Source: Anaerococcus sp. (lineage in GTDB: Bacteria > Bacillota > Clostridia > Tissierellales > Peptoniphilaceae). Taken from it: 64,000 bases of DNA. Below, in pieces: positions 29,979 through 46,979 of this stretch. The DNA lies in the NCBI GenBank assembly GCA_030532385.1, contig JAUNLG010000001.1:174078-238077 (forward strand), in the 5' to 3' direction. The position numbers were made by a program, and so were the translations under genes. Numbering within the stretch: the first letter of the stretch is position 1; each line of letters opens with the position of its first letter. The notes beneath the pieces were generated by a model. That model ran no database searches. It saw nothing but the letters and a program-made list of their open reading frames with translations, and was not told where the DNA came from.

Positions 29979-30007
29979 TTGACAATACCAGTTTAACAGG
30001 ATAAAAT
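29979..30007 (+). promoter_or_regulatory. oppA1 promoter
   Basis: TTGACA (29979-29984), exactly 17 bases, TAAAAT (30002-30007); then a conserved leader ending AGGGGGAAAC before the start. The other 220 bases of this gap hold only the amidase terminator and an AT-rich stretch with a word (TTTAGATTCAGC, 29852) related to sequences before oppA2 and oppA3. Confidence 0.85.
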
Positions 30008-30048
30008 ATATAAATATAAAAGTTACTTAATATTTTAGGGGGAAACTA

Positions 30049-32280: not shown

Positions 32281-32304
32281 GAAATTAAATAACATTGTAG
32301 GAGG

Positions 32305-32325
32305 GCAGGCTTATGGCCTGCTTTT
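32305..32325 (+). terminator. Terminator after oppA1
   Basis: GCAGGC pairs with GCCTGC around TTATG, followed by TTTTCT. Confidence 0.75.
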
Positions 32326-32543
32326 CTACTTCTTAAGAGTAAAACTTATAAATTTAGTATAAAAGAATAATTTGATACTCATGGTCTTTAGCCTGGCTTT
32401 GAAAACGTTAGAATTTAGCCTAATAGCGTATTACCATGCTTTAAAATAATGGAATAATATACAATAAAAAAACTTATTTCCTATGATAATAGGAAATTTA
32501 AAAATAAAAATACCTATAAGTGAATAATAAAAAAAGATTTTAC

Positions 32544-32572
32544 TTGACAAAAGCAATTTATTAAGTTAAAAT
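32544..32572 (+). promoter_or_regulatory. oppA2 promoter
   Basis: TTGACA (32544-32549), 17 bases, TAAAAT (32567-32572), the same geometry and -10 as oppA1 and oppA3. The 333-base gap otherwise contains the oppA1 terminator and a conserved upstream word (TTTAGCCTAATAGC, 32414). Confidence 0.87.
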
Positions 32573-32613
32573 AAATAAAAATAATGTTACTTAATTTTTT
32601 AGGGGGAAATCTT

Positions 32614-34824
32614 ATGAAAATGAAAAGAGTTTTTTCTTCACTAATGGCCCTAGGCCTAGCATCTACCTTAGTTGCTTGTGGTGGAGGAGAAGATACTAGT
32701 GAAACTAATACTGACCAAGCATCAGATACAAATGCTCAGGAAAACGCAGAAGAAACTACAGAAGATACTGGAGAAGAAGATACACAAACAGAAGATACAG
32801 GCGATGCTACAGAAGAAGGAGAAGAAGAATTTGAATCCCAAGCTTCAGGTGATAGCCTAGTAGTTGGTATTGGAGAATTAAATGGAGACTTCTATGGTGG
32901 ATGGACTAACAATGCAAGTGATGTAAAGGTTAGAAGATTCATGGGTATAGAAGGAAATAACGGTTATTCTACAGTTGTTCAAGATGAAACAGGCCAATGG
33001 GTAAATAACTCTACAGTATTAGCAGAAGATCCAATAAGCGAAGATAATGAAGATGGATCAAAGACCTTTACCTTTAAGATCAAAGATGACCTAAAATGGT
33101 CAGATGGAGAAGGGGTAAATGCTGATGACTACCTATTTGGTATCCTTCTAGAGACACATCCTGACTATATACCATTGACAGGATCAACCAACCCAGGAGC
33201 AGATGCTGTTAAAGGCTATGAAGCTTATATAGGCGGAGAAAGTGATATTTTTGAAGGACTTGAAAAACTAGATGACTATAGCTTTAAGATTACAGTTGAC
33301 TCATCCTTCCTACCTTACTATGAAGAGGCTTCTTTATCAGCAGTAGGTCCTTTCCCAATGCATGCTATTACAGAAAATCTAGCACTTTCGCCTGAAGGAA
33401 ATAAACTTGTGGCAAAAGAAGGCTACGAAATAACTGAAGAAGATAAAAATGCCTATATAGAAGGTCTTGATACACAAATCCAAGCTCTAACAGCTGATTT
33501 TGAAGACAATAACCCAGCTCCAGCAGAAAATGCAAGTGATGAAGAAAAAGCTTACTACGATGAAGCTAAGGCAGAATTTGACGCTCAAATAAAAGATCTT
33601 GAAGATCGTAAAAATGGAGATGTAGACCCTACTCAACAACTTATAGAAGAAGCTATGCTAAGGCAAGTTAATGAGTATAGGTTAAATCCATCAGTAGTAT
33701 CAGGTCCATATAAGTTTGAATCATTCTCAAATAACATGGTAAAACTTAACCTAAACGAAAACTACGCTGGAAACTTTAGAGGTGAAAAAGCTAGCATACC
33801 AAATGTAATACTTCAAACTGTAAACGCTAAGATAGCAGTAGACCTACTTGAAAATGGCGATATAGATATCTGGGATGGAGAAGCTGAGGGTGGTCCAATC
33901 GATCAAATGAGGGCTGCAGCAGAAGCTGGAACAATCGGTGGCTATAACACTTATGATAGAAATGGTTATGGAAACCTAACCTTCCTAACAGATAGGGGAA
34001 CAACCCAATATAAAGAAGTAAGACAAGCCATAGCTAACCTAATGGATAGAAATACTTTCGTTCAATCTTTCGCAGGAGGCTATGGAGTAGTAACCAATGG
34101 TATGTATGGTTCAAGCCAATGGATGTATAAGGAAAGAGGAGCTGATCTAGAAAGTAAACTAACCAACTACCAACTAAACCTAGACCAAGCAAATTCCCTA
34201 CTTGACCAAACTCCATATAAGTTTGAATCAGACGGATCAACACCTTGGGATAAGGCAAAGGCTGAAGAAGAATTTGCGGCAAACCCAGATGGTTATGACT
34301 ACTATAGGTATGATGAAAATGGAAATAAGCTTGTAGTTAACCAATATGGTTCAGATGAATCAGAGATAACAACTCTAATCTCTAACCAAGTACCAAACAA
34401 TGCTAAGCAAGTTGGTATGGAATATAACGTAACAGCAGGATCCTTTGCAACCTTGCTAGACTACTACTATTATCCAGATGAGAATCCAGAGTATACAGCA
34501 TTTAACATGGGATCAAACTTCGGTACACCATTTGATCCATGGTACCAATACAACTCTGAAGCTCCATACAACTACACAAAGACCAATGATCCAACAGCAG
34601 ATGAGATAACAGTAAAACTTCGTAAGACAAATCCAGATGACCAAGAAGGTTACCTAGATACTTGGGAAGAATTCCAAGTATGGTATAACGACTACCTACC
34701 AGAAATCCCATTATATGCTAACCAATACCACTCAGGTTATACAAATAGGGTAAAAGGCTATGACCTAGCTACACCAGTTTGGGAATCTGAATATCAAATC
34801 AATGCAATGAGCCTTGAAGAATAA
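32614..34824 (+). CDS. oppA: Oligopeptide ABC transporter substrate-binding lipoprotein, paralogue 2
   Basis: A 736-residue paralogue with the same layout as its neighbour: lipobox STLVAC, a Thr/Glu-rich acidic tether of different sequence, the SBP core, and the helical insert (TEEDKNAYIEGLDTQIQALT to RQVNEYRL). Large parts of its C-terminal half match paralogue 1 at nearly every base, while the tether does not, pointing to recent gene conversion or selection. I use ATG 32614 (MKMKRVFSSL) after AGGGGGAAATC rather than the upstream in-frame ATG, which has no ribosome site. Confidence 0.93.
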   Translation: MKMKRVFSSLMALGLASTLVACGGGEDTSETNTDQASDTNAQENAEETTEDTGEEDTQTEDTGDATEEGEEEFESQASGDSLVVGIGELNGDFYGGWTNNASDVKVRRFMGIEGNNGYSTVVQDETGQWVNNSTVLAEDPISEDNEDGSKTFTFKIKDDLKWSDGEGVNADDYLFGILLETHPDYIPLTGSTNPGADAVKGYEAYIGGESDIFEGLEKLDDYSFKITVDSSFLPYYEEASLSAVGPFPMHAITENLALSPEGNKLVAKEGYEITEEDKNAYIEGLDTQIQALTADFEDNNPAPAENASDEEKAYYDEAKAEFDAQIKDLEDRKNGDVDPTQQLIEEAMLRQVNEYRLNPSVVSGPYKFESFSNNMVKLNLNENYAGNFRGEKASIPNVILQTVNAKIAVDLLENGDIDIWDGEAEGGPIDQMRAAAEAGTIGGYNTYDRNGYGNLTFLTDRGTTQYKEVRQAIANLMDRNTFVQSFAGGYGVVTNGMYGSSQWMYKERGADLESKLTNYQLNLDQANSLLDQTPYKFESDGSTPWDKAKAEEEFAANPDGYDYYRYDENGNKLVVNQYGSDESEITTLISNQVPNNAKQVGMEYNVTAGSFATLLDYYYYPDENPEYTAFNMGSNFGTPFDPWYQYNSEAPYNYTKTNDPTADEITVKLRKTNPDDQEGYLDTWEEFQVWYNDYLPEIPLYANQYHSGYTNRVKGYDLATPVWESEYQINAMSLEE

Positions 34825-34849
34825 GACTTGGCTTAGTAATAATCAAGAC

Positions 34850-34882
34850 AAAGTAGGTGGATTAATTTCCACCTACTTTTTG
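34850..34882 (+). terminator. Terminator after oppA2
   Basis: AAAGTAGGTGG pairs with CCACCTACTTT around ATTAATTT and is followed by T residues. Confidence 0.88.
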
Positions 34883-35136
34883 CTGGCTAAATCTTAAAAA
34901 AATTAACAAAACCCTATTAAAAATTAAAATTTATTAAAAATAATAATACAATAAAAAATCCAACCAAGAAGGCAAAGGTTTTTCATATCCCTCTTAAATC
35001 CTTATATTTTAGCCTACTAGCACTTTAAGCTATTCCTTTAAATTGGAATAAAATACAAATAAAATATAAAAAACTTTATTTGGTGGGTAAATAAAGAATA
35101 AAAATACTGTATTATGAATAAAAAAGAATAGACACC

Positions 35137-35165
35137 TTGACAAAATTTGTTTATTCAGTTAAAAT
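35137..35165 (+). promoter_or_regulatory. oppA3 promoter
   Basis: TTGACA (35137-35142), 17 bases, TAAAAT (35160-35165). The rest of the 383-base gap holds the oppA2 terminator and the upstream word TTTAGCCTACTAGC (35008), again about 130 bases before the -35. Confidence 0.87.
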
Positions 35166-35207
35166 TAATAAGTATAAATGTTATTTAATTTTTTAAGGGG
35201 GAAACCG

Positions 35208-37403
35208 ATGAAGTTAAAAAGAGTTTTTTCGTCACTAATGGCCCTAGGCCTAGCATCAACCTTAGTTGCATGCGGTTCTGGCGGAGATAGCACTACCAAT
35301 GTTGATGAAAACGCAAATGAAGAACCTTCTACAAATGAAGAGGGTCAAACAGAAGATCAAAATGAGGGTGAAACCACAGAAGAAGGTTCAACCGAAGAAG
35401 TTGATAACTTCGAATCACAAGCTTCAGATGATGCCCTAGTAGTGGGTATAGAAGAGCTAAATGGAGACTTCTATGGTGGATGGACTAACAATGCAAGCGA
35501 TGTAAAGGTTAGAAAATTCATGGGAATAGAAGGAACTAACTCATATATGACAGTTGTCCTTGATGAAAATGGGGAGTGGGTAACCAATCCAACCGTTCTT
35601 AAGGAAGATCCTATAGTAGAAGATAATGAGGATGGATCAAAAACTTTCACTTATAAATTAAAGGAAGACTTAAAATGGTCAGATGGAGAACCTGTAACTG
35701 CAGATGACTACCTATTTGTATCCTTACTTGAAAGTCACCCTGACTATATACCATTGACAGGATCAACCAACACAGGTTCTGATTCTCTAAAGGGCTATGA
35801 TGCTTATTATAGTGGAGAAAGTGATACTTTTGAAGGTCTAGAAAAGATCGATGATTATACATTTAAGATGACAATTGATGCCTCTTTCCTACCTTACTAC
35901 CTAGAAAATTACCTAGGAGCTGCAATTCCATTCCCAATGCATGCTGTTACAGAAAACCTAACAGTTTCACCAGAAGGAAATAAACTAGTTGCAAAAGAAG
36001 GCTATGAAATAACTGAAGAAGATAAAAACGCCTATATAGAAGGCCTTGATACCCAAATCCAAGCTTTGACCGAAGACTTTGAGGAAAATAACCCTGAGCC
36101 AGGTGCAGAGGCAAGTGATGAAGAGAAGGCTTCTTATGAAGAATATAAGGCAGAGTTTGACGCTCAAATCAAAGACCTTGAAGACCGTAAAAATGGCGAA
36201 GTAGACCCGAGCCAACAACTTATAGAAGAAGCTATGTTAAGGCAAGTTAATGAGTATAGGATTGCTCCATCAGTAGTATCTGGTCCATACAAATTTGAAT
36301 CATTCTCAAATAATATGGTGAAACTTAGCCTAAATGAAAACTATGCAGGAAACTTTAAAGGTGAAAAGGCTAGCATACCAAATATTATCCTTCAAACTGT
36401 AAATACAAAAATAGCAGTAGACCTACTTGAAAATGGTGATATAGATATTTGGGATAATGAGGTAGAAGGTGGCCCAATCGATCAAATGAGGGAGGCTGCA
36501 GAAGCTGGAATAATTGGCGGCTACAATACCTATGAGAGAAATGGTTATGGTAATATGACCTTCCTAACAGATAGGGGAACAACCCAATATAAGGAAGTAA
36601 GACAAGCTATAGCCCAACTAATGGATAGGAATACCTTCGTTCAATCTTATGCAGGAGGTTATGGAGTAGTAACCAATGGTATGTATGGTACAAGCCAATG
36701 GATGTATAAGGAAAGAGGAGCAGACCTTGAGGCTAAGTTAAATAACTACCAACTAAACCTTGAAGCTGCAAGTAGCCTACTTGACCAAACTCCATATAAG
36801 TTTGAAGCAGATGGATCAACACCTTGGGATAAGGCAAAGGCTGATGAAGAATTTGCAGCAGATCCAGAAGGCTTTGACTACTATAGGTATGATGAGAATG
36901 GAAATAAGCTTGTAGTTAACCAATACGGTTCAGATGAATCACCAATTACAACCTTAATTTCTAACCAAGTACCAAACAATGCTAAGCAAGTTGGTATGGA
37001 ATATAACGTAACAGCAGGATCCTTTGCAACCCTTCTAGACTACTATTATTTCCCAGATGAGAATCCAGAATATACAGTCTTTAACATGGGTACAGGCCTT
37101 GCTGAAGCCTTCGATCCATGGTACCAATACCACTCTGAAGGACCATTTAACTATACAAAGACAAATGATCCTATAGCAGATGAGACTACAGTGAAGATGC
37201 GTAATACAGATCCTGAAGATAGGGAAGGTTACCTAGATGCTTGGGAAGAATTCCAAGTATGGTATAACGACTACCTACCAGAAATCCCACTTTATTCTAA
37301 CCAATACCACTCAGGATATACCAATAGGGTTAAGGGCTATGACCTTGCTACACCAGTTTGGTCATCAGAATATCAAATCAATGCTATGACCTTAGGTGAA
37401 TAA
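35208..37403 (+). CDS. oppA: Oligopeptide ABC transporter substrate-binding lipoprotein, paralogue 3
   Basis: A 731-residue paralogue, the most diverged of the three. Lipobox STLVAC, a shorter acidic tether, SBP core with DDLF-type motifs (ADDYLFVSLLESHPDYIP) and the same helical insert (TQIQALTEDFEENNPEPG and following). Different residues around the ligand cavity (ALVVGIEELNGDF, AEAFDPWYQYH) would allow another peptide preference; that is inference. Start ATG 35208 after AAGGGGGAAACC. The permease operon begins 343 bases downstream from a separate promoter. Confidence 0.93.
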   Translation: MKLKRVFSSLMALGLASTLVACGSGGDSTTNVDENANEEPSTNEEGQTEDQNEGETTEEGSTEEVDNFESQASDDALVVGIEELNGDFYGGWTNNASDVKVRKFMGIEGTNSYMTVVLDENGEWVTNPTVLKEDPIVEDNEDGSKTFTYKLKEDLKWSDGEPVTADDYLFVSLLESHPDYIPLTGSTNTGSDSLKGYDAYYSGESDTFEGLEKIDDYTFKMTIDASFLPYYLENYLGAAIPFPMHAVTENLTVSPEGNKLVAKEGYEITEEDKNAYIEGLDTQIQALTEDFEENNPEPGAEASDEEKASYEEYKAEFDAQIKDLEDRKNGEVDPSQQLIEEAMLRQVNEYRIAPSVVSGPYKFESFSNNMVKLSLNENYAGNFKGEKASIPNIILQTVNTKIAVDLLENGDIDIWDNEVEGGPIDQMREAAEAGIIGGYNTYERNGYGNMTFLTDRGTTQYKEVRQAIAQLMDRNTFVQSYAGGYGVVTNGMYGTSQWMYKERGADLEAKLNNYQLNLEAASSLLDQTPYKFEADGSTPWDKAKADEEFAADPEGFDYYRYDENGNKLVVNQYGSDESPITTLISNQVPNNAKQVGMEYNVTAGSFATLLDYYYFPDENPEYTVFNMGTGLAEAFDPWYQYHSEGPFNYTKTNDPIADETTVKMRNTDPEDREGYLDAWEEFQVWYNDYLPEIPLYSNQYHSGYTNRVKGYDLATPVWSSEYQINAMTLGE

Positions 37404-37419
37404 GAAATCTTTAAAATTT

Positions 37420-37455
37420 GACCTAAAGGGCTCACGCTAAGTGGGCCTTTTGGTC
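37420..37455 (+). terminator. Hairpin after oppA3 (probable terminator)
   Basis: GACC..AAGGGCTCAC pairs with GTGGGCCTT..GGTC around GCTAA. The T-run behind it is poor (ACTTTCTT), so some read-through into oppB is possible. Confidence 0.55.
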
Positions 37456-37602
37456 ACTTTCTTATCTAGTAAAAGCTTATTCGCTTAGGATTAATAAGAA
37501 ATTGGTTTGAAATTCAATAAGGTATAAATGTATAAATATAAGGTTTGACTTTATAAAAATATCTAGGCCTCTTGCCTAAATTCGGTCGTTGATAAATTAT
37601 AT

Positions 37603-37634
37603 TTGACAAAAACACTTTTGTATATTAATATAAT
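37603..37634 (+). promoter_or_regulatory. oppB operon promoter
   Basis: TTGACA (37603-37608) followed at 18 bases by TAATAT (37627-37632) or at 20 by TATAAT (37629-37634). It drives oppBCDF and the small membrane gene. The rest of the 343-base gap is AT-rich, without another visible element. Confidence 0.65.
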
Positions 37635-37746
37635 ACTAATAAAAATTATTAACTTGGAATTTTATATCTATTTTTTAAAATTAATACATATTATATGATG
37701 GAAATTATAGACCTATAGATTCCCTTGTTAAAATAGGAAGGAATAT

Positions 37747-38709
37747 ATGTTTCGCTATACAGTAAAAAGAATTTTAAATTTAATACCAGTAGCTCTTATT
37801 ATATCCATAATGCTTTTTGCTTTCTCAAAAGCAATGCCTGGAGATCCTATCAAGGCAATGATGCCTACCACAGGTAGGATGACCAAGGCCCAACAAGAGG
37901 AACTTTACCAAACTCTTCAAGCAAGATATGGACTAGATAAGAGTCTACCAGAACAGTATGTAAGATGGCTTGGTAGAACCCTAAAGGGAGACTTGGGAGA
38001 ATCTACAAGAGTTAGAAGACCTGTAAGTGAGTACCTATCTGAGCCATTAAAAAACACCATATTCTTAAATATAGGTGCCACAATCCTATCCTTTGTTCTT
38101 TCGATATTGATAGGAATTAGATCAGCCACGCATAAGGGAGGAATTTTTGATAAGACCTTCCAGACTTTAACCTTGGTTGGTCTATCAATACCAGTATTTT
38201 TTATAGGCTTGATTTTAATCTTTATCTTTGCCTTTAGATTAGGATGGTTTCCTGCAAATGGTATGCCTAGGGAAAATACCTTTACTGAATGGGTAAGGTA
38301 CTTAGTTTTACCTACAGCAACCCTAACTATTGGTTCCCTTGCATCCTTATCAAGGTATGTAAGAAACTCCATGCTTGATGCACTAGATCAAGATTATATT
38401 AGAACTGCAAGAAGTAAGGGATTAAAGGAAAAGACTGTTATTTATTCTCACGCCTTTAGAAATGCCCTAATTCCAGTAGTAACAGCCCTAACCTGGGCAG
38501 TTCTTGGAATGTTTTCAGGTTCTGCTATAACTGAGAGGATCTTCTCATATAGAGGAATAGGAAATGAGCTTATAGCTGCGGTTATGGCCCAAGATTATAA
38601 TGTAATATTAGCTCTATCAATGTTTTATGCAATATTGACCTTGCTTGGAAATTTGATAATGGATCTAGCTTATGCTCTTGTAGATCCTAGAGTTAAGTTG
38701 GAGGCTTAG
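37747..38709 (+). CDS. oppB: Oligopeptide ABC transporter permease OppB
   Basis: A 320-residue permease of normal length with six membrane spans and the EAA-type loop RTARSKGLKEKTVIYSHAFRNALIP (core SKGLKEKTVIYSHAFRN) that meets the ATPase. LDKSLPEQYVRWLGRTLKGDLGES is the typical first loop. It pairs with OppC to form the channel. Two bases separate it from oppC. GGAAGG precedes the start. Confidence 0.95.
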   Translation: MFRYTVKRILNLIPVALIISIMLFAFSKAMPGDPIKAMMPTTGRMTKAQQEELYQTLQARYGLDKSLPEQYVRWLGRTLKGDLGESTRVRRPVSEYLSEPLKNTIFLNIGATILSFVLSILIGIRSATHKGGIFDKTFQTLTLVGLSIPVFFIGLILIFIFAFRLGWFPANGMPRENTFTEWVRYLVLPTATLTIGSLASLSRYVRNSMLDALDQDYIRTARSKGLKEKTVIYSHAFRNALIPVVTALTWAVLGMFSGSAITERIFSYRGIGNELIAAVMAQDYNVILALSMFYAILTLLGNLIMDLAYALVDPRVKLEA

Positions 38710-38710
38710 G

Positions 38711-40687
38711 ATGAATCAGACTTTTAAAAAATCTTTACAATCATATGGTAACTTTTTGAAATCATTTCTCTTAAGAGCCTTTACTTTTTCCAAGGGATAT
38801 GAATTTGAAGAAAACAACCTAAATACAAATAATGATCAACCTATCAATGAAGATGAATTGATCAATAAGAATAAGCAAAATGTAGATATGGGTCCATCAA
38901 AGGATGATGAAAATGATAAGCTAAAAGAAGAAGCTATCATGAGTCCAGGTAGGGTTGCCCTAAGAAATTACTTTAGGAATCCTCTAGGAATAATAGGACT
39001 AATACTTTTTGTAGCTATAGTTTTGGTAATATTTGTAGGCTCAAGAGTCCTACCTTTTGACCAATACTACTCCCAAGGTAACCTAACCAATGTAGCCCCA
39101 GGTGGAGCCTACATGAATTATCCAAAAGAGTTTGAAGATGAGGGAGTTAGTAAGATTTCTATAGGAAATACTTTCTCAGTAGGTCTAGGTAAGGAAAATA
39201 ACCTTTATGTCTGGGGATCAGACAATGAAGATAATGTCCTAAATATACCAAATGAAATCAAAAAAAATCTAAATGAAAAAGAAATCATAGATGTTGCAGC
39301 AGGAGATAGGCATATCATAGTTGCAACAAGTGATAATGAAATCTATGGTTGGGGAAATAACTCCTTTAACCAAGCAGACTCTCCAGCAATGGAGGAAGCT
39401 AAAATAAAAGAAGAAGGAATAGCAAAATTAGGCGGCGGTGTCCAATATTCAGTAGTATTGACCAAGGCTAATAACCTAGTAGTATGGGGATCAACCCTTG
39501 CTTCAAGGCTAAACCTCCTTCCTTCTGACATAAATGGAAATGTAGTAGACTTTGCTACAAATCCAATTAATATCTTAGCCATCCAAAAAGATGGATCCAT
39601 TAGGCTTCTTGGTGTAATGGGATCAGAGCTTGATACCCAAATGCCAGAAGAGCTTAAGGATGGATCTGTTAAAGTAAAAAAAGTAGCTTTAACTTCATCA
39701 TCAGGTGCAGCCCTAAGTGAAGATGGCAAACTTTACGTATGGGGACCATCTAGGGATAACCTAGCTGGGGAAAATATACCAGAATTTGAAGCTGACCTTG
39801 TTGATATAGCAGCAAGTGACACAGTTCTTACAGCCCTTGATGCCAATGGTAAAATCTACCAATGGGGTAAGGATAACTATGGAGAATTATCAACACCAGA
39901 GGGTGAATTTGAACAAATTTATTCATCATATTTTAACAACTATGCTGTTAGAAATGAAAGTGGAGAGATTGAAACTTGGGGCCTAAATGGCTTTAGGTTT
40001 GGTTCAGATGATCAAGGTCGTGATATATTCACAAGACTTATCCACGGTGGTAAAATGACTATGATAATCTCTCTAATCTCAACTGTAATCCAAATAGTCC
40101 TAGGTGTACTAATTGGTATGGTTTCAGGATTTGTGGGCGGAAAAGTAGACAATGTCTTAATGAGATTTTCAGAAATTGTTGCCTCCTTCCCATTCTATCC
40201 AATGCTAATATCCCTATCAGCCCTCCTACCTCCAGGCGCAAGCCAAGAAGAGAGAATTACCATGGTAATGATCCTTCTAGGATTACTAGGTTGGACAGGT
40301 CTTGCTCGTCTAGTCCGTGGACAAATATTAGCAGAAAGAGAAAGAGATTATATAACAGCTGCTAGGGCCTTGGGTGTAAAAAACTGGTCAATAATGATTA
40401 AGCACATCCTACCAAATATCCTATCAATAGTAATAGTAAATGCTACTATAGGCTATGCTGGAAACCTACTAACAGAATCTGGTTTATCCTTCCTAGGATT
40501 TGGTGTCCAAGAGCCAACACCTTCATGGGGTAATATGCTAACAGCAGCTCAATCATCAGATGTATTAAATACCTACTGGTGGAGATGGGTATTCCCAGCA
40601 CTTGCAGTATTTTTAACATCATTTTCAGTAAACCTTATTGGTGATGCACTAAGAGATGCAATAGATCCAAGAGCAAATGAGAGATAG
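38711..40687 (+). CDS. oppC: Oligopeptide ABC transporter permease OppC with inserted seven-blade RCC1-like propeller
   Basis: A 658-residue protein, about double the usual OppC (about 300). Residues 1-78 are a polar cytosolic extension, 79-110 the OppC N-terminal region with membrane span 1. Then, in the first extracytoplasmic loop, residues about 147-424 form seven repeats of the RCC1 pattern (for example LYVWGSDNEDN, IYGWGNNSFNQ, LVVWGS, LYVWGP, IYQWGKDNYGE, IETWGLNG). The chain then returns to the normal OppC motif FGSDDQGRDIFTRLIHGGKM (429-448), five more spans and the EAA loop TAARALGVKNWSIMIKHILP. The propeller would face OppA and the cell surface. Frame and codon use are continuous, so this is not a misread fusion. 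Confidence 0.93.
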   Translation: MNQTFKKSLQSYGNFLKSFLLRAFTFSKGYEFEENNLNTNNDQPINEDELINKNKQNVDMGPSKDDENDKLKEEAIMSPGRVALRNYFRNPLGIIGLILFVAIVLVIFVGSRVLPFDQYYSQGNLTNVAPGGAYMNYPKEFEDEGVSKISIGNTFSVGLGKENNLYVWGSDNEDNVLNIPNEIKKNLNEKEIIDVAAGDRHIIVATSDNEIYGWGNNSFNQADSPAMEEAKIKEEGIAKLGGGVQYSVVLTKANNLVVWGSTLASRLNLLPSDINGNVVDFATNPINILAIQKDGSIRLLGVMGSELDTQMPEELKDGSVKVKKVALTSSSGAALSEDGKLYVWGPSRDNLAGENIPEFEADLVDIAASDTVLTALDANGKIYQWGKDNYGELSTPEGEFEQIYSSYFNNYAVRNESGEIETWGLNGFRFGSDDQGRDIFTRLIHGGKMTMIISLISTVIQIVLGVLIGMVSGFVGGKVDNVLMRFSEIVASFPFYPMLISLSALLPPGASQEERITMVMILLGLLGWTGLARLVRGQILAERERDYITAARALGVKNWSIMIKHILPNILSIVIVNATIGYAGNLLTESGLSFLGFGVQEPTPSWGNMLTAAQSSDVLNTYWWRWVFPALAVFLTSFSVNLIGDALRDAIDPRANER

Positions 40688-40696
40688 GTGAAAATA

Positions 40697-41698
40697 ATGA
40701 GTTTATTAGAAATAAAGAATCTGCACACCTACTTTGAAACAAGACGTGGTCTAATCAAGGCTGTAAATGATGTATCATTTACCATTGATGCAGGAAAGAC
40801 CCTAGGTCTTGTTGGAGAAAGTGGATCAGGAAAAAGCCAAACAGCTATGAGTGTCCTTCAACTGTTTGAAAAAAACCAAAAGATCTATGGTGGAGAGATA
40901 ATCTTTGATGGAGAAAAAATCTCTGAATATAATACAAGCCAAATGGATGAAATAAGAGGTAACAATATCTCTATGATCTTCCAAGAGCCAATGAGTTCCC
41001 TAAACCCAGTATTTACTGTAGAAAAACAAATATCAGAAGTACTCATGCTTCATAGGGGGATGAATAAAAAAGAAGCTGCCAAAAGATGCGAAGAGCTTCT
41101 TGCAGCAGTAAAGATTCCAAACCCTCATATAGTAGCCAAACAATATCCTTTTGAACTATCAGGTGGAATGAACCAAAGGGTAATGATAGCCATGGCCCTA
41201 GCCTGCGAACCAAAATTACTAATAGCAGATGAGCCAACCACAGCCCTTGATGTAACAATCCAAGCCCAAATCTTAAAACTTATGAATGAGCTGAAGGAAA
41301 AAGCTGGAACAAGTATCTTATTTATAACCCATGACCTTGGTGTAATAAATCAAATGGCAGATGAAGTAGCAGTTATGTATTGTGGACAAATCGTAGAGCA
41401 ATCTCCTGTAGAATATATCTTCAAACATGATATTACAGACTACAACCACCCATATACAGTAGCCCTCCTAAACTCAATCCCATCAATAACATCAGATAGG
41501 AATGAAAGGCTAGATATAATACCAGGATCAGTTCCTCACCCACTTAACCTACCAAAAGGATGTAAGTTTGCAGATAGGTGTAAGTATGCAACACAAAAAT
41601 GTATAGATCAAATGCCAGAACTTAGACCTATAAATGAAAACCAAATGATTAGGTGTCATTATCCAAATAGAAAGGAGAGGGAGCAAAGTGGAAAATAG
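40697..41698 (+). CDS. oppD: Oligopeptide ABC transporter ATPase OppD
   Basis: A 333-residue ABC ATPase of normal build: Walker A GESGSGKSQ, Q-loop FQEPMSSLNP, signature LSGGMNQR, Walker B LLIADEPTTALD, and the C-terminal oligopeptide extension with the Fe-S-like cysteine set CKFADRCKYATQKC. It energises import with OppF. I choose ATG 40697 (AGGTG upstream) over GTG 40688 directly behind the oppC stop. It overlaps oppF by 11 bases. Confidence 0.94.
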   Translation: MSLLEIKNLHTYFETRRGLIKAVNDVSFTIDAGKTLGLVGESGSGKSQTAMSVLQLFEKNQKIYGGEIIFDGEKISEYNTSQMDEIRGNNISMIFQEPMSSLNPVFTVEKQISEVLMLHRGMNKKEAAKRCEELLAAVKIPNPHIVAKQYPFELSGGMNQRVMIAMALACEPKLLIADEPTTALDVTIQAQILKLMNELKEKAGTSILFITHDLGVINQMADEVAVMYCGQIVEQSPVEYIFKHDITDYNHPYTVALLNSIPSITSDRNERLDIIPGSVPHPLNLPKGCKFADRCKYATQKCIDQMPELRPINENQMIRCHYPNRKEREQSGK

Positions 41699-43307
41699 AG
41701 AAAATAAAAAGGTCCTATTTAAAGTTAGAAACCTAAAAAAATACTTCCCTCTTAAGAAAAAATCTATATTTGATAAGGGAGCCAATGACTATGTCCACGC
41801 CAATGAATCTATAAGCCTAGATATCTACCAAGGTGAGACCCTAGGCCTTGTAGGAGAATCTGGATGTGGTAAGTCAACCTTTGGTAGGACCCTTCTTCAA
41901 ATTTATGATCAAACAGAAGGCACAACATTATATTATGGAAAAACTGTAGATGACATGGCTCCAGAATATATGCTTGAGATGATCAAAAGAATCCCATCAA
42001 AATTCCCTAACTATAATAAGGAATTAGAAGAATTAAATAAGATCTATGAGGACTTAGAAAAGGCAGAAGATGATCAAGCTCGTGCAGAATTAAACGAGAA
42101 GGCCATGTTCAAACGTAGAGAAATAGAAGAAGATTACCTAAATATGGTAAGAATAGCTGGAGGACTACTAGCAAGTGATGACCTAGGCAAGGTATCAACA
42201 ATGCTTAAAGATAAGTATGAAGTCCTAAAGCAAAGGGCAAAAATCTTAAGCTTAATAGAAGAGCTTGAAGATAAGACCCAAATGAGGTCAAGAAGCTGGG
42301 AAGAATACCATAATTTCTTGGACGCTGACCCTAAATATAAGGAATTAGAAGAGAAGAAAGCTTCTCTAAGCAAAAAAATTGAAGAAAAAGATAGGGCCAT
42401 AGAAGAATATAGAAAAACCCTAGAAAATAAAGAAAACTTCAAAGACCTAGAAGATCTAAAAGATGATGGAATAGACCTATCAGAATTAACAAACGAAGAG
42501 ATGAGAAGCCTTCGTAAAGATCTACAAATGATCTTCCAAGACCCTTATGGATCCTTGGATACAAAAATGACAGTAGGAAATATAATAGGAGAGGGAGTCT
42601 TAGGTCATAATCTATTTAAAAATAGGAATGAAAAAGGCTATAACGAATATATAAGAGAAACTATGGAAAAATGCGGCCTTGCCCCATACTTCCTCCATAG
42701 GTACCCTCACCAATTCTCAGGTGGACAAAGGCAAAGAATAGGAATAGCAAGAGCTCTTGCCCTAAAACCAAAGTTTATAGTATGTGATGAGGCAGTATCA
42801 GCCCTTGACGTATCAATCCAATCACAAATTATAAACCTACTCCAAGACCTAAAAGATCAAAACAACCTAACCTACCTTTTCATAACCCACGACTTATCAG
42901 TTGTAAAATATATATCAGATAGGATAGGAGTAATGTATTTAGGTGTTTTAGTAGAACTTTCTGAATCAGAAAGAATCTTTGAAAACCCACTCCACCCTTA
43001 CACAAGAGCCCTCCTACAAGCTATACCAAGGACAGATGTAGACCAAGGTCAAGAATTACAAACCATAGAAGGTGATATACCATCAGCAGTAAAACCACCA
43101 AAGGGATGTAGGTTCCACACTAGGTGTGAATATGCAATGGACATATGTTCACAATTTGAGCCAGAGCTAAAGGCTGTAGAAGATGGACACTTTGTAGCCT
43201 GCCACCTAATGGATGTATCTGAAGAAGAAAAGGCTAAGGCCTATGCAAAAAATAAATCCAAACAAGAAAAAATGGATGAAGAATTAGAGAAGATGAGTGC
43301 CCTATGA
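41688..43307 (+). CDS. oppF: Oligopeptide ABC transporter ATPase OppF with long helical insert
   Basis: A 539-residue protein; typical OppF has about 320. Walker A GESGCGKST (56-64), Q-loop FQDPYGSLD (283-291), signature FSGGQRQR (343-350), Walker B IVCDEAVSALD and the C-terminal cysteine cluster CRFHTRCEYAMDIC are intact. Between Walker A and the Q-loop, residues about 92-267 are an added, mainly helical, charged stretch with coiled-coil character (KELEELNKIYEDLEKAEDD; KKASLSKKIEEKDRAIEEY). Start is GTG with GGAGAGGG upstream, inside the oppD end. It should be active; the insert would project from the nucleotide domain into the cytoplasm. Confidence 0.93.
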   Translation: MENRENKKVLFKVRNLKKYFPLKKKSIFDKGANDYVHANESISLDIYQGETLGLVGESGCGKSTFGRTLLQIYDQTEGTTLYYGKTVDDMAPEYMLEMIKRIPSKFPNYNKELEELNKIYEDLEKAEDDQARAELNEKAMFKRREIEEDYLNMVRIAGGLLASDDLGKVSTMLKDKYEVLKQRAKILSLIEELEDKTQMRSRSWEEYHNFLDADPKYKELEEKKASLSKKIEEKDRAIEEYRKTLENKENFKDLEDLKDDGIDLSELTNEEMRSLRKDLQMIFQDPYGSLDTKMTVGNIIGEGVLGHNLFKNRNEKGYNEYIRETMEKCGLAPYFLHRYPHQFSGGQRQRIGIARALALKPKFIVCDEAVSALDVSIQSQIINLLQDLKDQNNLTYLFITHDLSVVKYISDRIGVMYLGVLVELSESERIFENPLHPYTRALLQAIPRTDVDQGQELQTIEGDIPSAVKPPKGCRFHTRCEYAMDICSQFEPELKAVEDGHFVACHLMDVSEEEKAKAYAKNKSKQEKMDEELEKMSAL

Positions 43308-43492
43308 AAGCACCTATAGATAGGTTTAAGGGCAAAGATAGAAAATACATTTATGAGAAAGAAAGTCTTATAGATAAGGACAGGCTTGAAAGTGGAGATA
43401 GACTCGCCATGTTTTTGGCAGCTATGAAGACCTTCCTGCCATGGGTCCTACTTTTACTATCCCCCCTCTTCCTCTTTGCAATTCTAATATAG
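43304..43492 (+). CDS. Small single-span membrane protein at the end of the opp operon
   Basis: A 62-residue protein whose ATG overlaps the oppF stop (ATGA), so it is translationally coupled. Residues 1-38 are charged (DRFKGKDRKYIYEKES); 40-62 form one hydrophobic span ending the protein (LPWVLLLLSPLFLF). I do not recognise a family. Its coupling suggests a stoichiometric accessory to the transporter. Alternatively it is a tail-anchored protein of unrelated role. Confidence 0.75.
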   Translation: MKAPIDRFKGKDRKYIYEKESLIDKDRLESGDRLAMFLAAMKTFLPWVLLLLSPLFLFAILI

Positions 43493-43576
43493 AAGCATAA
43501 AATTAGAGACTTTTAAAAAAGAAATGTAGAGGCATTTCTTAAAGACCCTATAATAAAAATTACTAGCTTTCTAGTA

Positions 43577-43645
43577 AAAAACCTGAGTATAAGTTAAACT
43601 AAGTAAAGACCTTAGGATAGAACTTATAACTCAGGTTTCTTTTTA
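43577..43645 (+). terminator. Terminator of the opp operon
   Basis: AAACCTGAGT and ATAAGTT arms pair with AACTTAT and ACTCAGGTTT, followed by CTTTTT. A weaker hairpin (AAGAAATG/CATTTCTT, 43519-43540) precedes it. Confidence 0.85.
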
Positions 43646-43662
43646 GGGGCTAATAAAAGGTC

Positions 43663-43691
43663 TTGACAGAAGTTTAATTTTCCTATATACT
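43663..43691 (+). promoter_or_regulatory. Promoter of the FMN riboswitch transcript
   Basis: TTGACA (43663-43668), 17 bases, TATACT (43686-43691), placing the start just before the riboswitch. Confidence 0.8.
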
Positions 43692-43712
43692 TAGGGTGTA
43701 ATAAATATTACA

Positions 43713-43817
43713 ATTCTTCAGGGCGGAGTGAAATTCTCCACCGGCGGTAAAGTCCGCGAGCGCAAGCTGAATCAGTGAAATTCTGGTACCGACAGTATAG
43801 TCTGGATGGAAGAGGAA
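43713..43817 (+). ncRNA. FMN riboswitch (RFN element)
   Basis: The conserved RFN segments are all present in order: CTTCAGGGCGGAGTG, CCACCGGCGGTAAAG, CCGCGAGCGC, AATCAGTGAAATTCTGGTACC, GACAGTATAGTCTGGATG and AGAGG. FMN binding normally shuts off riboflavin synthesis or uptake genes. No such gene follows: the expression platform terminator at 43844-43868 is followed by about 500 bases without a coding region. Confidence 0.95.
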
Positions 43818-43843
43818 ATTGTCTAATTAGATTTAGAAATTTT

Positions 43844-43868
43844 AAGTCCCTGATGAGGGGCTTTTTTT
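43844..43868 (+). terminator. Expression-platform terminator of the FMN riboswitch
   Basis: AGTCCCT pairs with AGGGGCT around GATG, followed by seven T. Confidence 0.85.
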
Positions 43869-44146
43869 ATAAGAAAATTCCCCTAAAGCCTTAAAAAGGC
43901 AAATGAAAATTTAAACTAGGCTAGCATATATCTTTCCTCAAATCATCTGTTAGTAGCCTAGGATAAGCATAAAAGACTCTAAGGAGTCTTTTTTTGTATG
44001 GGCTTATTTAAATGTATATTATAAAAATATGGACAAATTTGTCCCTTGTTAGAAAAAATCTTTTGTATTATCATAGACCTATGTTTATAGAAAAATCAAC
44101 AGACATCGACTTTTAAGAATACTAGAACAAAAAAAGGAGGGTGAAT
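43869..44146 (+). other. Gene-free region after the FMN riboswitch, with a hairpin and terminator
   Basis: No coding frame is supported here. CTAGGCTA (43916-43923) and TAGCCTAG (43954-43961) can pair across a 30-base loop, and AAAAGACTC/GAGTCTTTT with a long T-run (43971-43996) is an intrinsic terminator. The layout looks like a remnant of a deleted gene or a short non-coding transcript. Confidence 0.6.
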
Positions 44147-44197
44147 TTGAAAGATAATATAATTCAAATTAGAAATTTAGAAAATTTGTTATTATAA
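44147..44197 (+). CDS. Possible 16-residue peptide or gene remnant with strong ribosome site
   Basis: AAAAAGGAGG lies six bases before TTG 44147, which opens a frame of 16 codons (MKDNIIQIRNLENLLL). The first twelve residues resemble the start of ABC ATPases, so this may be the remains of a deleted transporter gene. A short signalling or leader peptide upstream of the regulator is the alternative. AATTTGAA/TTCAAATT inverted repeats (44144-44151, 44163-44170) overlap the start. Confidence 0.3.
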   Translation: MKDNIIQIRNLENLLL

Positions 44198-44290
44198 TAA
44201 AGATTTTTAAGCAACTATCTAGCCCTAATATGCTCACATTTTTACAATTTGAGTAAATAAGTTAAGGCTCCTTTATGCTTTTTATTGTAA

Positions 44291-44341
44291 ATGATATTTT
44301 TAATATTAAAAAATATCATAAATCTTAAAATAAAGTATAAT
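44291..44341 (+). promoter_or_regulatory. Inverted repeat and -10 element upstream of the XRE regulator
   Basis: ATGATATTTTT and AAAAATATCAT (44291-44319) form an almost perfect inverted repeat where the -35 region would be, before TATAAT at 44336-44341. It is a likely operator, perhaps for autoregulation. Confidence 0.55.
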
Positions 44342-44369
44342 CCAATAAGAAGAAAAGGAGTTTTGTTGG

Positions 44370-45299
44370 ATGGATAAATTAAAAGAGTTTGGTCAGAAAG
44401 TAAGAGAAATTAGAAAGGCTAGGGGGCTTAGTCAAAGCGATGTGGAAGCCTTATCTTTTATTTCAAAAAAATCGATCTCAAGAATAGAAAATGGCAAACA
44501 AGGCCATCCCTCGATCGATTACTTAGTAGAACTTTCAAAAGTATATGCTTACAACCTTGTAGATCTATTTATAGCAACTATCTATACAAGCCTTCAAGTA
44601 CTTGCTGATATTAAAAAAGACTTAGATGTAAATGCTCATCTTTTAAGTAAAAGGAAATTAGAAGAGATTGATAGGCGCATAGGAATGATTGAGAATGATT
44701 ATGAATTAAGAAATAAGGGCTATGAACTAGAGCTTTTAAAATTATTTATTGATTCGATAAGAAATAAAAATGACTCAAGTTATGATCTTGGAGAGAAATT
44801 TAGATTTATAACAAGGAATCGAATCAATAATAAAAATATTTTAACAAATGTCTATACCCCTATTGAGTTAAGATTACTGTCCGATATTTGTTCCGAGTCG
44901 GAGTCATACTTGGGAGTTTCAAGAGTAAAAATATTGAAGTCTTGTACTTGTCAGGCAAACACACCGACTTTACTTGCAGTATCATCTAATAGCTTGGCTA
45001 CTGCCTACTACGAGCGAAATAATTATCGTAATGCTTTAGAAGCACTCGAGAAAGCGATACGTAACAAAGATAATGCCGTCTCATTAGATGCTTTGGTTTA
45101 CCTAAATTATAATAAATTTTGGAATCTATATAAGAAAAACGACCCAGGATATAAATTATGCTTAAAAAACACACTTATTTTAGCAAGAAATTATAGTAAT
45201 ATTGCTGTATACCAAACAATAAAAGACAAGTTAAAAAAATTTGCCTATAAGTGTAATTACATTAAAGAGATTGAGAAAAAAGTTTTATATTTTAGATAA
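44370..45299 (+). CDS. XRE-type regulator with TPR-like C-terminal domain (RRNPP/Rgg-like)
   Basis: A 309-residue protein. Residues about 8-62 are a Cro/C1 helix-turn-helix (VREIRKARGLSQSDVEALSF, SKKSISRIENGK). The remaining 240 residues are helical, with tetratricopeptide-like pairs such as YYERNNYRNALEALEKAIR. This two-part layout is that of peptide-sensing regulators (Rgg, PlcR, PrgX), although a ligand is not known. TCG, CGA and CGT codons are more frequent than in neighbouring genes, hinting at acquisition. It is just upstream of an ABC module on the same strand. AAAGGAG precedes the ATG. Confidence 0.8.
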   Translation: MDKLKEFGQKVREIRKARGLSQSDVEALSFISKKSISRIENGKQGHPSIDYLVELSKVYAYNLVDLFIATIYTSLQVLADIKKDLDVNAHLLSKRKLEEIDRRIGMIENDYELRNKGYELELLKLFIDSIRNKNDSSYDLGEKFRFITRNRINNKNILTNVYTPIELRLLSDICSESESYLGVSRVKILKSCTCQANTPTLLAVSSNSLATAYYERNNYRNALEALEKAIRNKDNAVSLDALVYLNYNKFWNLYKKNDPGYKLCLKNTLILARNYSNIAVYQTIKDKLKKFAYKCNYIKEIEKKVLYFR

Positions 45300-45322
45300 A
45301 TTTTAGAACAAAGAGGGGATAA

Positions 45323-45769
45323 ATGAAGAAGTCTTTATTGAGAATTGATGAAAAGTTAATCCTGTTTTTTTCTTATTTGCTTTGCTTTGCCTTAAATATT
45401 TTTTTAGATTATTTAAAATCAAAGCCAATGGATTCTTTACTTTTAGAAATTTTTTTAAGCCAATTTCTAGACTATAAGGTCTACATTGTGGGGGTCTTTA
45501 CCATAATCGTCCTTCTTTTTCACTTAAAAGTATTGGATAAGAAGGAAAAAGAGATATATTGTAGGTTCCTTGTGGGCGATTACTTGAAAGCCCTTGGCTT
45601 AAGATATGGGGTGGAGTCTTTTTTTATCCTACTTATATCTCTTTTCCTTGCAGAACTTGTGGCAGGCTTTCTTTCTCTTAGCCTTATTACTAATATATAT
45701 TTGGCCCTTTTTTTATTGATTTATACCCTTGTTAGCTGGTGGAAGGTAAGAAATTATGAAAATTTTTAA
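45323..45769 (+). CDS. Integral membrane protein of the ABC module
   Basis: A 148-residue protein with about four hydrophobic spans (roughly 12-30, 48-66, 95-113, 118-138) and a short positively charged loop (VLDKKEKEIYCRFL). No family is recognised. AGAGGGGAT precedes the ATG. It overlaps the downstream permease by 14 bases, so it is likely a partner of that transporter. Confidence 0.7.
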   Translation: MKKSLLRIDEKLILFFSYLLCFALNIFLDYLKSKPMDSLLLEIFLSQFLDYKVYIVGVFTIIVLLFHLKVLDKKEKEIYCRFLVGDYLKALGLRYGVESFFILLISLFLAELVAGFLSLSLITNIYLALFLLIYTLVSWWKVRNYENF

Positions 45770-46979
45770 ATTTTTTGTAAAAGAAATATTTTTTAAGAGG
45801 ATATTATTTATTATAGGAGTTTTTTTGCTGGCCTTTATGGCAAATTACTTGGTATTTACAGCAACTAGGTCTTCTATTTCAACCCTCCTAGGTTATAAAG
45901 AAGTATCTTATCTTAAAAAGGATAATAGCTTTGTAGCTAACCTTGATCCCTCTAGCCCTTATGATCTAAATGATATAAGTGAAGAAGAAATTAAAGAGGT
46001 CTATGATTATTTAGGGGAAAATTTTACCTATGGCTTTTATACAGATGGTGTTGTTGCAAATCTTGATAATCCTTATGATATGGAAGTTTCTTTCGCCTAC
46101 CTTAATGAAACTTATGATAAGATTAATAGCTTCGATATAGCCAAGGGTGAAAATATAAGCTTTGACTATGATCTTAAGAAAAATGATGAAATTCCAGTTC
46201 TTATAGGCCATGGCCTAAGTGAAAACTATCCAATAGGCTCTAAGATTGACCTATTTGAGTATGGCTTACTTGATGATGTTAGGCTTAGGGTTGTTGGAAT
46301 CTTAAATAAGGATGATTACCGTACCAATATTTATGTCCTTAATTCTAAGCAATACAACAATTTTTCAGTAATTCTTCCTATCAATGATAGTTATATTGAA
46401 AAGGCCAACCTAGCCTTAAAGGCCCAGGGCCTATCTGATTTGATCCTTCTTGATACTAACGAAAAGGAGATTGCTGAGCTTAAGGCCTACATAAAGGATA
46501 AGTTAAATTTTGACTTTAATTTTTTAACACAAGAGGAAATTTCTGCTAATTTTAAGGAATATTACCTTGATGCCCTAAAACTTATTCTTCTTGTAAGTGG
46601 GATTATTGCCTTAATTTTAAGTTTTATTAATATCTACTTATCTATATCAGGCCTTAATATGATGATAAAAGATTTGACCATAAATCTATTTGCTGGCCTA
46701 AGCCTTGAAGGCTTGCGCAAAATATTTTATAAGTTTTTTCTAGGTCTTTTCGCCTTAAACTTACTAGGCCTATATGCCTTTGTTAGTATTTCTAGGTATG
46801 GGTCTTGGTTAAGAAAAGAGATTTTGTCAGCAACCTTTGGCTTTTTATCTCTTACAAGTATTGATTGGATGGCCTTTGGACTGGTGGTCTTGTTTAACCT
46901 AATAATGTGCCTTGTAATTGTTGAAATTTCTATGGCAAGGATCAAAAAAATCCCTATTTCATTAGGAGTCTTACAATGA
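45756..46979 (+). CDS. FtsX/MacB-like ABC transporter permease
   Basis: A 407-residue protein with the FtsX-superfamily layout: one N-terminal span (10-32), a large extracytoplasmic domain (35-265), then three spans (about 272-295, 320-345, 372-395). Families of this shape export peptides or lipoproteins, or transmit signals across the membrane. The next gene encodes the ATPase and overlaps by 4 bases. Substrate unknown; with the regulator upstream a role in peptide export, bacteriocin immunity or antimicrobial-peptide sensing is possible. Confidence 0.8.
   Translation: MKIFKFFVKEIFFKRILFIIGVFLLAFMANYLVFTATRSSISTLLGYKEVSYLKKDNSFVANLDPSSPYDLNDISEEEIKEVYDYLGENFTYGFYTDGVVANLDNPYDMEVSFAYLNETYDKINSFDIAKGENISFDYDLKKNDEIPVLIGHGLSENYPIGSKIDLFEYGLLDDVRLRVVGILNKDDYRTNIYVLNSKQYNNFSVILPINDSYIEKANLALKAQGLSDLILLDTNEKEIAELKAYIKDKLNFDFNFLTQEEISANFKEYYLDALKLILLVSGIIALILSFINIYLSISGLNMMIKDLTINLFAGLSLEGLRKIFYKFFLGLFALNLLGLYAFVSISRYGSWLRKEILSATFGFLSLTSIDWMAFGLVVLFNLIMCLVIVEISMARIKKIPISLGVLQ

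Follow-up and report, generated by a model that had tools for sequence, protein, structure and literature searches.

A putative RCC1-type propeller in the first outer loop of OppC marks a conserved subfamily of Bacillota oligopeptide importers

Why should the permease of a peptide importer carry a propeller-like domain in one of its loops? In the usual account, Type I ATP-binding cassette (ABC) importers are simple permeases that owe their specificity to a separate binding protein. The question is raised by an oligopeptide permease (Opp) operon in a 64,000-nucleotide stretch of Anaerococcus sp. DNA (GCA_030532385.1, contig JAUNLG010000001.1, positions 174,078 to 238,077), referred to here as the window, which comes from a 1.39 Mb draft genome whose closest named relatives are Anaerococcus (Peptoniphilaceae). 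Three tandem oppA-type genes on the + strand are followed by oppB, oppC, oppD and oppF (oppB–oppF, 37747–43307), and the substrate-binding protein, partner permease and two ATPases of an Opp operon are all present beside OppC. Within OppC, a domain of the RCC1/BLIP-II type, about 290 residues long, follows membrane span 1 and precedes the GSDDQGRD motif. The features of oppC are as follows:

38711–40687, + strand: OppC permease with RCC1-type propeller insert, 658 amino acids (aa) (open frame, Pfam)
38942–39076, + strand: OppC_N and membrane span 1, residues 78–122, span at ≈92–110 (Pfam OppC_N 5.9e-8; hydropathy)
39113–39148, + strand: repeat tail, residues 135–146, proposed to complete blade 7 by velcro closure (shuffle test; P138 98% conserved)
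39149–39985, + strand: seven RCC1-type repeats, residues 147–425 (Pfam RCC1_2/RCC1, PDB profile search, repeat alignment, columns of 78 homologues)
39980–40024, + strand: short GLNGF junction leading to the GSDDQGRD motif, residues 424–438 (G424 and G427 invariant)
40103–40675, + strand: BPD_transp_1 permease core, residues 465–655 (Pfam 6.7e-32)

An initial annotation, made from the sequence alone, had noted extra residues at 147–424 (39149–39982) and proposed a search against RCC1 profiles. The coordinates agree with ours, and the search placed both RCC1_2 (9.4e-27; four stretches; 92.5 bits against a cut-off of 22) and RCC1 (5.7e-6; 27.3 bits against 21.7) above their Pfam cut-offs; WD40_RLD, the "RCC1-like domain", reached 113.4 bits (2e-32), below its curated cut-off of 150. 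The protein also scored as OppC, with both OppC_N (32.9 bits; cut-off 23.9) and BPD_transp_1 (111.1 bits; cut-off 26.4). When a profile of 19 loop members was compared to the PDB, it matched HERC2 (1.2e-40), UVR8, RCC1 and BLIP-II (2.4e-30), at values that exclude a chance likeness to RCC1. Some details of the annotation had to be revised. The domain starts not at residue 147 but near residue 135 (39113), where residues 135–146 resemble a repeat tail, and the normal loop is shorter than the 60 or so residues assumed: in two OppC paralogues from the same genome (292 and 272 aa, without the insert) the permease half starts at residues 70 and 49. The oppC gene was the sole RCC1_2 match in this genome, and the base composition of the insert is ordinary. 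A split or frameshifted oppC was ruled out by the suggested survey of OppC lengths in Peptoniphilaceae, in which 45/45 rows of the family search had stop-free, full-length frames of 605–670 aa.

The seven repeats that had been counted are seen in the repeat alignment, and all seven AB-loop columns are occupied in an alignment of 78 homologues (occupancy 1.00). A propeller profile made from the OppC loop itself matched 78/78 distinct members with 238–399 bits, so that, with every AB-loop column filled, the number of blades seems constant. With strands taken by sequence from the known RCC1 repeat, each unit consists of a strand, a short loop, a strand, a turn, and a strand ending in WG (LG in blade 4). 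The two motifs that had been proposed for the repeats hold only in part: the (I/V)xxAxG core is exact in blade 2 alone, and its last glycine is missing from blades 4–7 of the window OppC, while the (L/I)YxWG strand fits blades 1, 2, 5 and 6 and is replaced at its end by LLG in blade 4. One locus (L107, 5943–8030, − strand) has an acidic, low-complexity stretch of ≈60 residues after blade 2.

Blade 7 lacks the repeat tail, and a matching tail (residues 135–146, including P138) precedes repeat 1. Such sharing of a terminal strand is the usual velcro arrangement, according to the general definition in the part of PMC3797127 available to us. The tails were scored with a profile of the inner junctions from the same 26 proteins, using 200 shuffles per protein. 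No shuffle was as good as the tail of the window OppC (0/200). The same was true for 11 of the 13 Peptoniphilaceae rows, the other two having one and two such shuffles, while the 13 distant rows were mixed, with 0 to 124 of 200; over all 26 proteins, 485 of 5200 shuffles reached the true score. The repeats are likely to form a closed seven-blade ring.

The 15 residues before span 1 (92–110) contain three Lys or Arg and no Asp or Glu, and the 15 after it contain one of each kind. Hydropathy and this charge bias place the loop outside, in keeping with the suggestion that the propeller lies on the outer face where OppA docks. In the E. coli Dpp system, as described in the part of PMC12136057 available to us, the regions between transmembrane segments 1 and 2 (TM1–TM2) of both DppB and DppC are periplasmic and are capped by DppA, and a scoop from DppB TM1–TM2 enters the DppA cleft as a proposed seal of the cavity. 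The window OppB aligns with DppB across this scoop region with five extra residues, so that the propeller seems to be an extra on the OppC side and no substitute for the scoop. Because only ≈4 residues join the last strand of blade 7 to the GSDDQGRD motif, the propeller is probably seated close on the permease.

The permease half (residues 426–654, best E-value 1.5e-48) aligns with E. coli DppC/OppC and M. tuberculosis OppC/DppC (8z1v, 8z21, 8j5q, 8wd9), and these solved complexes have the same kind of operon partners as the window OppC. However, the solved OppC/DppC chains are 287–302 aa long and have a short first outer loop, and no PDB chain among the matches listed matched both the permease and the RCC1 repeats. 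The best family for the permease was NCBIfam Opp4C (NF045476) at 308.7 bits, which is below the curated cut-off of 350 and was not assigned; compared to Opp4C, the propeller OppC proteins form a separate clade on a long stem. BLIP-II, UVR8, HERC2 and RCC1 belong to the same repeat family, but the window OppC has its propeller set into a membrane permease. BLIP-II is bacterial and secreted, as the OppC propeller would be, and is a protein binder (PMC9218822, seen in part); the OppC propeller resembles BLIP-II at the level of sequence, which does not imply that it binds class A beta-lactamases. According to a figure legend in PMC2950845 (also seen in part), RCC1 shares a domain network with the permease domain IPR000515, although for relatives of family-3 binding proteins and not for OppC, and the accessible part of PMC11466899 contained no such OppC. 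Our literature search found no paper naming both OppC and RCC1 (the 2008 paper by Stevens and Paoli on proteins with RCC1-like repeats, which might mention permeases of this kind, lay outside the search) and, as had been supposed, no published characterisation of an Opp transporter of this form. The propeller OppC seems to be a conserved variant of the oligopeptide importer, apparently unstudied as far as the searched literature shows.

How widespread is this variant? Named genomes yielded 25 loci, of which 12 were in Peptoniphilaceae and 13 in Oscillospiraceae, Christensenellaceae and other Clostridia metagenome-assembled genomes. Propeller OppC was present in 31/31 genomes of the genus (twice in one of them), in 44/130 genomes and 10/39 genera of the family, the genus genomes included, in at least 13/291 genomes of the class sample (the propeller sequence matched 16 at 1e-10, with a frame of OppC size in 11, plus two found via OppF), and in 14/398 genomes of the phylum sample, counting the genome of the window. 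It marks a conserved Opp subfamily, present throughout the genus sample but patchy across the phylum sample. An oddity of one assembly was ruled out by the 25 named relatives and the genome surveys. A mobile origin was also rejected, as there was no phage match and none of the 765 plasmid records with a permease match covered 80% of the protein.

A tree was made from 79 permease halves (76 different), 37 with and 42 without the propeller. All 37 propeller permeases formed one clade (support 100/100, stem 0.61), in which the 13 Anaerococcus-type rows were sister to the other 24. None of the 42 propeller-less permeases sampled fell inside this clade, where losses could nevertheless be missed because the rows came from propeller-bearing queries or via long OppF. 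One genome of the same family (G185) grouped with members of other families, which suggests an old transfer or sorting. A second copy in genome G310 (L152) has the propeller OppC in an oppB–oppC–oppA set, with Opp ATPase genes absent in the 19.5 kb read; this set may borrow OppD and OppF from the first operon.

The raw ratio of nonsynonymous to synonymous differences (pN/pS) was 0.15–0.16 for the propeller and ≈0.02 for the permease half in two window pairs, at a pS of 0.54–0.64 that is near saturation, and 0.05–0.20 against 0–0.04 in six close pairs. The low values for the propeller indicate that it is under selection and not decaying, and by these ratios it is constrained yet freer than the channel. 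RCC1 repeats also occur free of OppC: in 196 Clostridia genomes the best of these scored 124 bits against the OppC-propeller profile, a partial match only, and the open frames that hold those among the listed Clostridia matches range from 307 to 29380 aa; we take them to be mostly surface proteins (L042 is a lipoprotein by eye). The longest frame, of 29380 residues (G048:C4, L197 among the rows), corresponds to a giant protein with RCC1-type matches.

The remaining features of the operon are the following:

30049–32280, + strand: OppA-like lipoprotein, 743 aa, copy 1 of 3 (Pfam SBP_bac_5 2.7e-38; 77% identity with copy 3)
32584–34824, + strand: OppA-like lipoprotein, 746 aa, copy 2 (SBP_bac_5 2.3e-34; 80% identity with copy 3)
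35178–37403, + strand: OppA-like lipoprotein, 741 aa, copy 3, adjoining oppB (SBP_bac_5 2.1e-36)
37423–37453, + strand: terminator-like hairpin in the gap between the last oppA and oppB (13 pairs)
37747–38709, + strand: OppB permease, 320 aa, E. coli DppB scoop region retained (BPD_transp_1 1.5e-40; DppB alignment)
40688–41698, + strand: OppD ATPase, 336 aa, usual length (domain scan)
41688–43307, + strand: OppF ATPase, 539 aa (domain scan)
41961–42473, + strand: OppF insert, residues ≈92–262, just before the Q-loop segment (≈170 residues, helix-rich by eye)

The insert in OppF follows the propeller closely. Among the matches listed, the best stretch in peptide-importer ATPases from the PDB starts past the insert, at residue 255 or later. 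In the 291 class genomes, the query match of 12 OppF proteins begins no later than residue 9 and extends through the insert; the G185 OppF matches from residue 226 in an enlarged frame, with a 140-residue insert read in L054, and the remaining OppF among the matches listed match only from residue 257. Propeller OppC was present in 12 of the 13 class genomes with long OppF; the 13th, G102, has a contig that stops short of oppC. Conversely, OppF adjoins in 74 of 78 distinct propeller operons (a 75th match, in L152, is PstB by sequence), and its insert has at least 96 residues in 73 of the 74 and at least 140 in 71, the short cases being L174 with 126 (frame incomplete), L025 with 96 and L027 with 14–20. 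Since the clade has one origin, the propeller and the OppF insert represent one joint history with one loss. The idea that the propeller strictly requires the OppF insert was ruled out by L027 and weakened by L025. The Mycoplasma OppD/OppF models MMSYN1_0167 and MMSYN1_0168 are likewise peptide-importer ATPases with long models (561 and 649 positions), but the window OppF scores under their cut-offs.

A second class of OppC (L087–L098 and L101) has an insert of 219–339 aa at the same loop (12 measured). A search of the 291 class genomes for Opp4C-like permeases gave, among the matches listed, 15 further genomes with OppC of 525–659 aa and a non-RCC1 insert; a 544-aa frame that is an ATPase fusion (G169) and a 558-aa frame whose sequence was unread (G284) were left out of this class. 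By eye, the second insert has repeated F..A....G..F...G..Y-like units. Three inserts scanned gave no Pfam match above cut-off and one weak match below it, a 12-row profile gave no PDB match, and hhalign assigned a probability of 0.15% to its likeness with the propeller profile, so the two are unrelated. The place of the insert is the same as in the propeller OppC, but here OppF is ordinary, with 328–407 aa where uncut, and a general pairing of large OppC loops with large OppF was ruled out. The first outer loop of OppC has thus acquired large domains of different kinds. Other odd forms were an OppC insert of ≈140 residues in L067, L068 and L102, an OppC fused C-terminally to an OppD-like ATPase (L066, 1447–3078, + strand, 543 aa), and a 472-aa OppC with an extra N-terminal block that is membrane-spanning by look (L059, 1489–2907, − strand); G201 and G242 have frames of similar length to the latter (474), with sequences unread.

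What might the propeller do? The domain and its place, its single clade, its retention in the sample, the purifying selection on it and the near-constant OppF insert are what the sequences show. On the reading that we put forward, the RCC1/BLIP-II-type propeller would have come into the span 1–2 loop in the common ancestor of this Bacillota Opp subfamily, with the strand before repeat 1 closing the ring and the ≈4-residue junction holding it close on the permease. On the OppC side, across from the DppB-type scoop, it would bind OppA and set its orientation, and one translocator could hold and exchange several OppA paralogues, such as the three in tandem here, with the OppF insert as the cytoplasmic companion of a specialised machine. 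The strongly conserved positions of the propeller among the 78 homologues are mostly structural Gly, Trp and Pro, and no catalytic set is obvious among them; a binding scaffold would show this pattern, which argues for a docking role. We give an even chance to the propeller being a fixed docking platform for OppA lipoproteins.

The co-variation of the operon proteins offers modest support for contact between propeller and OppA. A mirror-tree analysis of 60 operons set the pairwise distances of seven parts against one another, and partial values were calculated given all other parts, with permutation values that ignore shared ancestry. The leading partner of the propeller was OppA (0.53), followed by OppB (0.28), the OppF insert (0.27) and the OppF core (0.17), with −0.08 for its own permease half and −0.28 for OppD. 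The positive control, OppB against the permease half of OppC, which are in known contact, gave 0.63. OppA was also first overall in two smaller runs of 28 and 26 operons (0.36 and 0.38) and first in their non-Peptoniphilaceae members (0.50 and 0.42), where the permease half of the same OppC was near (0.42 and 0.39). All three OppA copies of the window have a helical insert; in the third, the alignment with the best solved relative, 9p48 OppA (562 aa), skips query residues 242 to 355 and omits an insert of ≈95 residues. This insert has 68–81 residues in 31/31 window-type rows, and among 40 others it has at most 27 in 35 and 109–129 in five. Large OppA proteins also accompany OppC loops of other classes (L087, 766 aa; L097, 790 aa, cut; L102, 663 aa).

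Several observations weigh against docking. OppA against OppD reached 0.49 without known contact, probably a false positive of the same method. The value for propeller and OppA was only 0.09 (p = 0.12) in the Anaerococcus-type clade (n = 28), compared to 0.57 in the other 32 operons, and in that clade the leading partners of the propeller are the OppF insert, at 0.32, and the permease half of the same OppC, at 0.24. Within Peptoniphilaceae, the smaller runs showed nothing for OppA (0.09) and had OppD first. The helical OppA insert was ruled out as the general partner of the propeller by the 35 of 40 other rows in which it is short. Most propeller operons have only one or two OppA genes within the fetched stretch, so the propeller does not serve many OppAs as a rule. 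Closure of the ring by the N-terminal segment appears clear in the Peptoniphilaceae rows and unclear in many distant ones. Finally, AB loops are conserved only slightly above BC loops and CD loops are not, although CD loops share the AB-loop face of the fold; loop conservation hardly points to one face of the propeller.

Among the other explanations, a second receptor is possible but doubtful. The propeller would then bind peptides, wall fragments or a molecule of the host or a neighbour, and pass it on to the channel or signal occupancy through OppC. It evolves fast, as receptors often do, with a mean distance of 0.60 where the permease half has 0.37; two residues close to the AB loops, H201 and Y411, are strongly conserved, and propellers are widely used as ligand-binding scaffolds (PMC3797127, in its available part). 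Yet no constant polar pocket is apparent, the AB-loop positions of blades 4–6 mostly vary, with the exceptions of 328 and 369, and OppA was present in every examined operon uncut on that side, so the usual receptor is not replaced. We consider it unlikely that the propeller is a lid or gate which seals the outward cavity on the OppC side, complementing the OppB scoop and stopping the loss of long peptides: the short junction with its two invariant glycines means that the propeller can hardly swing away, and a sealing role has been proposed for the DppB scoop in E. coli (PMC12136057, seen in part), but OppB keeps its scoop region and a seal probably exists already, unless both act together. Also unlikely, in our estimate, is a permanent, transporter-borne receptor or exchange station that would capture OppA, or peptides directly, and hold them next to the channel, so that one translocator is shared by several OppA paralogues, with the OppF insert reporting or timing from the inside; if true, Type I importers would have a novel way of delivering substrates. 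An anchoring role, in which the propeller ties the importer to some other surface partner, such as a peptidase, the wall or an S-layer, and takes no part in transport, is very unlikely. The surface proteins with free RCC1-type repeats would fit such an anchor, but among the listed frames, which were not tested systematically, no non-Opp neighbour was constant except a frame starting with MCGIV at several Anaerococcus loci, and the strongest co-varying protein over the 60 operons was OppA. A tolerated, near-neutral lineage marker, for which the faster evolution of the propeller and the tolerance of the loop for a second, unrelated insert might speak, is scarcely credible given that the clade has no propeller-less row, that all members match the profile with all AB-loop columns filled, and that the domain is under purifying selection.

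The surroundings of the operon were also inspected. The intergenic RNA between oppA and oppB folds better than its shuffles (z = −3.9), while the hairpin scan as a whole found 10 sites compared to 10.6 in shuffles, and thus no excess of terminator-like sites. Rfam gave no riboswitch controlling the operon in 30000–46000; the single match, a flavin mononucleotide (FMN) riboswitch at 43710–43821 (111.7 bits), lies downstream and is followed by a terminator-like hairpin, with the next normal-sized gene only at 44370, a frame that by eye resembles a helix-turn-helix regulator. An M3-family oligopeptidase F at 61818–63596, ≈18 kb downstream, is a plausible user of imported peptides.

Large inserts of two or more unrelated kinds have thus entered the first outer loop of OppC, and a whole lineage has a large fold of a protein-binding type built into its permease at the docking face. 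If the propeller does hold OppA, it would give a handle on the capture, exchange and orientation of several binding proteins per translocator in Gram-positive bacteria.

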